From Bacteroidota bacterium (GTDB lineage Bacteria > Bacteroidota > Bacteroidia > Cytophagales > Cyclobacteriaceae): a stretch of DNA of 43,709 nt. The translations under genes were made by a program, and so were the position numbers. Position 1 is the first letter of the stretch. Each line of letters opens with the position of its first letter. This document shows, in pieces, positions 36,899 to 38,649 of this stretch. The stretch covers positions 1-43,709 of the forward strand of contig JABDGP010000022.1 of the NCBI GenBank assembly GCA_013285945.1, in the 5' to 3' direction. Under the pieces are notes generated by a model. It did not search any database, was not told the DNA's origin, and saw nothing but the letters and a program-made list of their open reading frames with translations.

Positions 36899-38649
36899 TC
36901 AAAAATCAGGATCAAGCCCCAGCCTGTCTTTTAATTCTTTCAACATCGGGTTCTTTTCCACCAGCAGATCAAATTTCTCTTTGTTGGTATAGGCTATTTT
37001 TTTTCCGTCTGCCTCTTTCAGCACGCTTTCTACCTTTATGGTCGGATTGCTCAGCCTGTTTCTAAGGTAAGAAACCAGCTCGGTCATAATCGATTGAAGT
37101 AAAGGCTCCTCCACTGTGTTGGCAAGCGCAACCGTAACTACGGGGCCGTTAACATCCACCGGCCTGCTGAGCAGATGAAACTCCGCCACCTGATTTTTTC
37201 GCTGATGCGCATATTCGGTCCACGCTTCACGCAGTTGCACATCCGTAAGTGGTTTCACATCCACAGGTTCTTCAATCTGCGGCAGGGCTACCTGCGGCTG
37301 CTCCTTTGTTTTTAAAAGAGAATTAAGGTTGAATGTTGACTTTGCCCGAGTCGAAGAAGTACTGGGAGAAGAAGATGGAACGACCGGTGAAATTGTTTCG
37401 GCTTGCACCGGTACTGATGGTGATACCGATTCGGCAGAAACTACTTCAGTTTCTTTTTTCAAAGAAGGCTTGGGAATACTTTCGGCAACAGCCGAAACAA
37501 TAAGAGTTTGTTTTTGAGCCGCCGGAGCTTCGGCAGGTTCAGGTTCTAATTCACTTTTTTTTTTAAGCCAGCCTCCGCTGGTACTCCTATCTGAAACGCA
37601 GAATTGACATACGCCATTTTCATCAACGCCAACTCTACCAACAATCGCTGATTTTTGCTGGCTCTGTAATTAATGTCGCAAGTGCTGGCAATATTAAGCC
37701 ACGACAACAGAAGCGAAGGCGGAGCGGCTTGTGCCTGTGACAGGTATTTTTGTTTGATGTTGTCGGGTACTTCCATCAGGTTCACTGTGCGTGCATCCTG
37801 CGATACCAACAGATTACGCAAGTGTTCGCCCAGACCGCCAATAAAATTCTGGCCGTCAAATCCCTTTTTCAAAATTTCATCCAATAATAATAAAGGAGTA
37901 GTGGCATTTTCGGCTAGCAAGCCATCTACCATTTTGAAATAATAATCGTAATCGAGAATGTGCAGGTTGTTGAGCACATCGCTGAACGTGACTTTATGAT
38001 TGGACGAGAACGTCACCATCAAATCGAAGATGGAAAGGCCATCGCGCAAAGCACCATCCGCCTTTTGAGCAATGAGGTGCAATGCTTCGTCTTCAACCTG
38101 AATATTCTCACGATCGGCAATTTTCTTTAGCTGTCTTGCGATGTCAGAAACCTGAATACGGTTAAAGTCAAACATCTGGCAGCGAGATAAAATCGTAGGA
38201 ATGACTTTGTGCTTCTCGGTAGTAGCCAAAATAAAAATGGCATACGAGGGCGGCTCTTCCAGCGTCTTCAAAAAAGCATTGAAGGCGGCATTGGAGAGCA
38301 TGTGAACCTCATCGATAATATAGACTTTGAATCTGCCAAACTGCGGTGGGTAGCGCACTTGATCTATCAGGCTGCGAATGTCTTCCACCGAATTGTTGGA
38401 GGCAGCATCAAGTTCAAAAATATTCAGCGAATTGACTTCGGCTTTTTCTTCAAAACCATTGATCAACCTTGCTACGATACGGGCGCAGGTAGTTTTGCCC
38501 ACACCACGCGGTCCACAAAACAGAAGTGCCTGAGCAAGTTTGTTATTATCGATGGCATTTTTGAGGGTGGTCGTAATGTGTTCCTGCCCCACAACTTCAT
38601 CAAACCCGAGAGGCCGGTATTTACGCGCCGAAACAACAAAATTATCCAT
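36899..38649 (-). CDS. dnaX: DNA polymerase III tau subunit (needs -1 frameshift at A10)
   Basis: DnaX is the clamp-loader ATPase of the replicase, and tau also tethers polymerase and DnaB. The gene is in two frames. The first carries the AAA+ core from the ATG at 38649. At the A10 tract (minus strand 37564-37555) a shift of -1, or transcripts with one extra A, joins an open frame to 36899, giving about 583 residues. Motifs are GPRGVGKTT (46-54), IIDEVHML (111-118), ATTE and ILSRC. The usual four-cysteine zinc module between Walker A and DELDAAS is missing. The tau C-part has an acidic/proline linker and a basic-helical end. Without slippage the 367-aa gamma form results. Confidence 0.88.
37546..37576 (-). 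promoter_or_regulatory. dnaX frameshift/slippage signal
   Basis: On the minus strand there is GGAGG (37576-37572), seven bases, then ten A residues (37564-37555) read as TTA AAA AAA AAA, then GTG AAT TAG. A short GCCG/CGGC stem with a 6-base loop lies about 20 bases downstream. Internal Shine-Dalgarno, A-run and close stop are the parts of the E. coli dnaX frameshift cassette. The long A run also suits Thermus-type transcriptional slippage. Confidence 0.75.
37546..38649 (-). CDS. dnaX: DNA polymerase III gamma form (zero-frame product of dnaX)
   Basis: The zero-frame reading runs through the A10 tract and ends three codons later (GLKKKVN, stop TAG at 37548-37546). It gives a 367-residue protein with the AAA+ domains I-III only, enough for clamp loading. 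The frame opens three codons further up from a TTG, but the ATG at 38649 starts MDNFVVSARKYRP, the normal DnaX N-terminus. In E. coli the roles are reversed in detail: the zero frame makes tau and the -1 frame makes gamma. Confidence 0.8.
   Translation of the reverse strand: MDNFVVSARKYRPLGFDEVVGQEHITTTLKNAIDNNKLAQALLFCGPRGVGKTTCARIVARLINGFEEKAEVNSLNIFELDAASNNSVEDIRSLIDQVRYPPQFGRFKVYIIDEVHMLSNAAFNAFLKTLEEPPSYAIFILATTEKHKVIPTILSRCQMFDFNRIQVSDIARQLKKIADRENIQVEDEALHLIAQKADGALRDGLSIFDLMVTFSSNHKVTFSDVLNNLHILDYDYYFKMVDGLLAENATTPLLLLDEILKKGFDGQNFIGGLGEHLRNLLVSQDARTVNLMEVPDNIKQKYLSQAQAAPPSLLLSWLNIASTCDINYRASKNQRLLVELALMKMAYVNSAFQIGVPAEAGLKKKVN

Follow-up and report, generated by a model that had tools for sequence, protein, structure and literature searches.

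A conserved A-run at the gamma/tau junction of dnaX in Bacteroidia is a probable site of transcriptional slippage

Introduction

How can a dnaX gene that changes reading frame in the middle of its coding sequence supply both gamma and tau? This question is raised by the stretch of DNA analysed here (the window, 43,709 nt; contig C22 of a 2.93-Mb, 78%-complete assembly in 130 contigs). A sequence-only reading of the window had placed the AAA+ part and the tau-specific part of dnaX in different frames that meet at ten A residues, and had proposed programmed frameshifting or slippage, with a homopolymer sequencing error as the main alternative.

Two-ORF dnaX genes with ten A's are already known. 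In the extracts of their 2013 paper used here, Antonov et al. listed 17 such genes from 12 genera, nine of them with ten A's, and proposed slippage (PMC3711429). According to excerpts of two further papers, Thermus thermophilus makes gamma and tau from one dnaX gene by transcriptional slippage on an A9 run (PMC1088944, PMC5009743). Excerpts on insertion sequences describe a stem-loop ahead of the run: in IS1447 (IS3 family) an A9 run follows a stem-loop and slippage goes both ways at about 16% each (PMC6211511), and in Roseiflexus IS630 the stem-loop lies directly before the slippery run (PMC5009743). Among the literature matches listed, which covered few subscription journals, none described class-wide conservation, DNA-frame drift or a stem-loop at the dnaX run.

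Here we propose, with a probability of roughly 0.7, that the A10 run serves as a programmed site of slippage for RNA polymerase, so that gamma and tau would both come from one gene.

Results

Anatomy of the dnaX junction in the window

All features of the junction lie on the minus strand. The zero frame of dnaX starts with ATG at 38649 and encodes 367 aa (37546..38649) containing the AAA+ ATPase and lid domains, as identified with Pfam and NCBIfam profiles. The Pfam matches were DNA_pol3_delta2, DNAX_ATPase_lid and DNA_pol3_gamma3, and TIGR02397 scored 372.7 bits against a cut-off of 250. The product of this frame would be gamma if the A-run is copied and read faithfully. The A10 run (37555..37564) is the proposed slippage site; the zero frame crosses it with the codons TTA AAA AAA AAA GTG, followed by AAT TAG, and the TAG (37546..37548) ends gamma. 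Right behind the run, the +1 frame is closed by TGA (37553-37551), a feature absent from the earlier reading. The -1 frame holds the tau-specific part, which extends for 217 codons past the run (36899..37554) to a TGA at 36901-36899. Past the A10, the tau frame alone thus stays open, the zero and +1 frames both stopping within three codons. The tau part had no match in Pfam, and by tblastn it aligned with the tau C-terminal parts of most relatives. These data bear out the earlier description of the junction, namely an AAA+ frame and a -1 tau frame separated by A10, with the zero-frame stop three codons on and 217 codons open in the other frame.

The GGAGG that had been noted seven bases before the run, as a possible Shine-Dalgarno-like stimulator, was also confirmed (37572..37576, followed by 7 nt). 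It overlaps a predicted stem-loop, CCAGC-GGAG-GCTGG (37568..37581; -8.8 kcal/mol), occupying its loop and the first base of the 3' stem arm. The stem-loop ends 3 nt before the run and is suggestive when tested by codon shuffling (p 0.07).

A run of this length is not improbable in itself: A9 matches occur three times on the two strands of the window, compared with a shuffle mean of 6.7. Runs of A10 or longer occupy five places in the whole 2.93-Mb assembly. A second A10 of this genome (G000:C11:36741-36750, L123) lies inside an open frame of 591 codons.

The A-run is conserved whichever frame holds tau

Relatives were collected as 326 loci. After leaving out L002-L004 (weaker matches elsewhere in the window's own genome) and L122-L127 (pattern hits), 317 were used, giving 311 distinct junctions; the whole set is not a random sample. 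The family sample (93) consists of the window, the 29 best other loci, 60 further places and three more members. The 60 places comprise 20 of the 23 listed rows with frames of at least 560 aa (counted by eye) and 40 short-frame places, and the proportions of frame states in the family are not random, as single-frame genes were deliberately sought. The other sets combine best-matching loci, places hand-picked to cover families, and 80 named loci that were put in the rest of the class by name alone.

When relatives were checked for the run, as had been suggested, A9-A11 was found at the same place, DnaX residues 345-400, in 269 of the 311 distinct junctions. By group, these are 90/93 in the family, 160/185 in the rest of the class and 19/33 outside the class, with 250/278 for the class as a whole. 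Over the 311 junctions, 210 have A10, 41 A9, 19 A11 and 7 A7-A8, and 34 have no run of at least A7. The A10 of L268 lies at about residue 442 and is therefore included in the counts of 270 A9-A11 runs and 268 tau-frame genes used below, and excluded from the 269. It is the conservation of the run, not the run itself, that is improbable; only 70% of the Lys codons outside the run in these dnaX genes are AAA.

Within the family, a dnaX match was obtained in 187 of the 196 genomes. In each of the 30 best family loci, window included, the run is A10 and the zero frame stops shortly after it. The combination of A10 with tau in the -1 frame occurs in 66 other family genes (67 with the window). Whichever of the zero, -1 and +1 frames carries tau, the run is retained. 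The earlier reading had held that homologues with a single uninterrupted frame and no run would refute it. Within the family none was found, as all 20 single-frame relatives read there keep A9, A10 or A11 at the same position; beyond the family, some Bacteroidales and members of other classes have such genes. Judged from this comparison of genomes, the dnaX A-run is a real, conserved recoding site.

The relatives without a run took several forms. Nine dnaX genes are in a single frame without an A-run (L234, L243, L272, L285, L295, L309, L310, L324 and L325; the named ones are Bacteroidales). Judged by eye, a GGGC-loop-GCCC inverted repeat is present at the junction in eight of them and, with a wobble, in the ninth, L325; the residues encoded there vary. 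In L239 and L286, dnaX is split at a junction without an A-run of at least 7. L298 and L321, both from uncultured Bacteroidales, have no A-run and instead carry an in-frame TAG at the gamma/tau junction in the shared context CCATAGATTGCWAGGTCGCC; the same frame continues for 201 and 254 codons, respectively, to a tau-like end. This junction is possibly one of stop-codon readthrough. Some other long frames at these two loci also end in TAG, and the amber motif was found in 0 of 395 class genomes.

The DNA-level frame of tau differs between close relatives

L089 and L175, which have a run but to which no tau frame could be assigned, were dropped, leaving 268 genes in which tau lies in the zero frame (149), the -1 frame (113) or the +1 frame (6). 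The +1 state comprises six genes, L320 being a draft contig, among which run-length errors may hide.

Five pairs of closely related genes (at least 85% identity across the segment compared) are in different frame states, and in four of these the runs differ by one A. L060 (A9, +1) and L150 (A10, -1) are 99% identical over the compared DnaX segment; the other three are L316 (A10, -1) and L320 (A9, +1), L033 (A10, -1) and L034 (A11, zero), and L169 (A9, -1) and L255 (A10, zero). In each of these four pairs the tau reading frame behind the run is unchanged. In the fifth pair, L164 and L165, the states differ although both genes have A10. The DNA frame in these pairs thus appears to be set mostly by the length of the run, and its change seems to be tolerated by the lineage, as a resetting of the frame in the mRNA would predict. 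On a FastTree phylogeny of ~170 residues, we counted at least 40 frame changes, a rough figure and no proof.

Stops close both non-tau frames behind the run

Slippage into all three frames would predict that both non-tau frames are closed quickly, and this was observed. Both are closed within 10 codons in 252 of the 268 genes, compared with a codon-shuffle mean of 65.7 (maximum 87 in 300 shuffles). After thinning for similar sequences, which lessens shared ancestry but leaves some of it, the count was 143/155 (null 36.4, maximum 53, 1000 shuffles). A -1 shift by the ribosome, which acts in one direction, needs one stop only and does not predict an early stop in the third frame, yet this second stop is also enriched. 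The frame foreign to such a shift is closed within six codons in 65 of 100 genes with tau in the zero frame (null 25.8, maximum 39), and within three codons in 36 of 52 genes with tau in the -1 frame (null 16.4, maximum 28).

A predicted stem-loop abuts the run in the class as a whole

We then compared the folding of the 28 nt before the run with that of shuffled sequences. The mean z was -1.42 for the class (160 genes) and -0.84 for the family (89 genes), compared with -0.37 to 0.12 in seven control windows further upstream in the same two groups. In a thinned set of 90 genes z was -0.79 (SE 0.14), with -0.47 in the family (20), -0.93 in the class (62) and -0.52 outside it (8). Against synonymous recoding, z was -1.09 in the class (SE 0.11), a sign of synonymous constraint there, and -0.33 in the family (SE 0.13), and the signal was absent in 19 genes outside the class (z 0.03). 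By the same measure, two more distant upstream stretches of 30 nt also deviate in the class set, though less (-0.58 and -0.36). Before 433 other A7-A8 runs in the 80 named loci z was -0.22, versus -1.30 before 62 dnaX runs there. Among the 191 genes with a fold of at most -4 kcal/mol, 78% have their last stem ending 0-3 nt ahead of the run, versus 55% of shuffles.

Covariation in the predicted stem-loop is modest. Counted over overlapping gene pairs, pairing survives double changes in 215 of 445 cells (0.48, versus 0.30-0.40 in slid controls) and single changes at 0.35, within the slid controls (0.25-0.47). A stem-loop directly 5' of the run is enriched in the class as a whole and weak in the window's family; two of four congeners of the window have a strong stem-loop and two a weak one (L005 and L007).

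No fixed upstream sequence was seen by eye throughout the class. The bases preceding the run are purine-rich in the family, and 23 flavobacteria-like sequences partly share one type of stem-loop. The idea that stem-loop strength offsets short runs was also rejected, as the stem-loops of A9 genes are no stronger than those of A10 genes.

Ribosomal alternatives and sequence error

An unlikely, though not negligible, explanation is -1 programmed ribosomal frameshifting on the terminal A_AAA_AAA of the run, stimulated by pairing of GGAGG with 16S rRNA and with product roles swapped. The spacing of GGAGG in the window speaks for it: the motif ends 10 nt before the last A_AAA_AAA heptamer, a distance close to the E. 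coli spacing. Also in its favour, Shine-Dalgarno-like motifs are enriched in both family and class. In the ten codons before the run, looser 4-mers were found in 55/89 family genes (null 31.6, maximum 44) and 79/160 class genes (null 39.8, maximum 58), and strict 5-mers in 22/89 family genes (codon-shuffle mean 8.1, maximum 16) and 13/160 class genes (null mean 8.9, maximum 17). The strict motifs lie mostly 1-7 nt before the run (18/22 in the family, 11/13 in the class), and this clustering near the run, rather than scatter, counts toward ribosomal frameshifting. Family genes with a strict motif have weaker stem-loops (-4.28 vs -6.41 kcal/mol), which suggests a possible ribosomal contribution. 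Part of the enrichment could stem from G-rich 3' stem arms. The strict motif is missing from 67 of 89 family genes and 147 of 160 class genes. As a conserved E. coli-like Shine-Dalgarno element GGAGG was set aside, and such a role of the motif in the window is kept as a possible part of the ribosomal explanation.

In genus g15 of the window's family (L093, L148 and L149) the run is A7G, giving A_AAA_AAG directly before a stop, and each of the three members read has a GGAGG nine nt upstream. This genus has likely switched to an E. coli-type signal, that is, to ribosomal frameshifting. A role-swapped dnaX, that of Chlorobium, is mentioned in the excerpt of PMC5009743.

Several observations weigh against a ribosomal -1 shift as the general mechanism. 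It requires A7 only, yet 270 of the 277 runs of at least A7 are A9-A11, and it would be unable to serve the six +1-state genes. A stem-loop downstream of the run, which was considered as a stimulator, is weak at most. Folding of the 55 nt that follow the run is slightly better than that of a control stretch (mean z -0.55 vs -0.29, 150 genes; window z -0.88), a point in favour of the shift, but mean z in 28-nt windows after the run is only 0.00 to -0.60 (family and class). Moreover, the available text of a study on Flavobacterium johnsoniae reports low prfB frameshifting and seldom use of Shine-Dalgarno sequences for initiation (PMC12421855).

Bidirectional sliding of the ribosome over consecutive AAA codons, with exit in any frame, would account for early stops in both other frames and for tolerance of frame drift, and the excerpt of PMC4363877 documents that E. 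coli ribosomes can slide on poly(A). According to the same excerpt, however, these ribosomes in vitro gave robust truncated product from A11 and little from the two shorter lengths, A9 and A10, which make up 251 of the 270 runs here; in addition, a stem-loop abutting the run would presumably be inside the ribosome. We regard this explanation as improbable.

Homopolymers are error-prone and the assembly is fragmented, but an error or pseudogene in the window is hardly credible given 66 other family genes with A10 and tau in -1 and a tau part that aligns with relatives; the run recurs in many independent assemblies, single-contig genomes included, so the sequencing error once offered as the main alternative is rejected, and for the class as a whole the genome comparison refutes this reading.

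Discussion

Our analysis supports the proposal of programmed recoding at the dnaX junction and, at the level of DNA, of a swap in product roles compared with E. coli. Between the two mechanisms left side by side by the sequence-only reading, transcriptional slippage is favoured and a ribosomal shift less so. We prefer slippage by RNA polymerase because it would explain the length of the run, the occurrence of tau in any of three frames and the early closure of the other two.

According to this model, polymerase slipping on the run would produce mRNAs with 9, 10, 11 or 12 A's. In the window, translation would end at TAG on transcripts with 10 A's and at TGA on those with 9 or 12, gamma being the product each time, and transcripts with 11 (or 8) A's would bring the tau part into frame. 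One template would thus feed three frames, and the frame at the DNA level would matter little and could drift among A9, A10 and A11, and the run would be retained meanwhile, together with the stops that close both non-tau frames. In much of the class, a stem-loop in the nascent RNA right before the run probably assists the slip. Together they would have the geometry of an intrinsic terminator, but with an A tract, and the abutting stem-loop would sit relative to the RNA-DNA hybrid as a terminator hairpin does.

The E. coli dnaX -1 cassette resembles the window in its A-rich shift site, its upstream Shine-Dalgarno-like motif and its tau and gamma products, which for the window are predicted. 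The window differs from it in having no in-frame A_AAA_AAG, a longer run, swapped roles and a downstream fold that is weak at most. The two-ORF genes of Antonov et al., as far as the extracts go, are of the same kind, with the zero frame ending in gamma and a frame transition, often at ten A's, needed for tau; adjacent ORFs, a -1 shift for tau and a poly-A junction are all found in the window. That cluster consists of split genes, whereas here single-frame genes with the run join one set, to which the three frame states, the stops in both other frames and the stem-loop are added. Thermus dnaX, known here by description from excerpts, shares an A-run of at least nine and stops in both other frames, but has tau in the zero frame, whereas the window has it in -1 (zero in 149 of the 268 relatives). 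IS1447 and IS630, again from excerpts, share the layout of a stem-loop before the run with the class as a whole, the stem-loop of the window being suggestive; theirs are transposase genes and here the gene is one of replication, with stimulation by the stem-loop only putative.

A broader proposal, which we rate at about even odds, is that Bacteroidia share a dedicated dnaX slippage cassette of a stem-loop and A9-A11, arranged like a terminator, which mixes the frames so fully that the DNA frame is nearly neutral and drifts through all three states, with selection acting on the run, its stem-loop and the stops outside the tau frame.

Annotation can easily mistake dnaX genes of this kind for broken genes or for two separate ones. 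The natural variants, namely A9, A10 and A11 runs, three frame states, strong and weak stem-loops, and A7G, could separate slippage from frameshifting within one gene, and they occur in a group with reportedly weak use of Shine-Dalgarno sequences. If the slippage model is true, one bacterial class would make two forms of its clamp loader by means of copying errors at a fixed site, while the DNA frame drifts.
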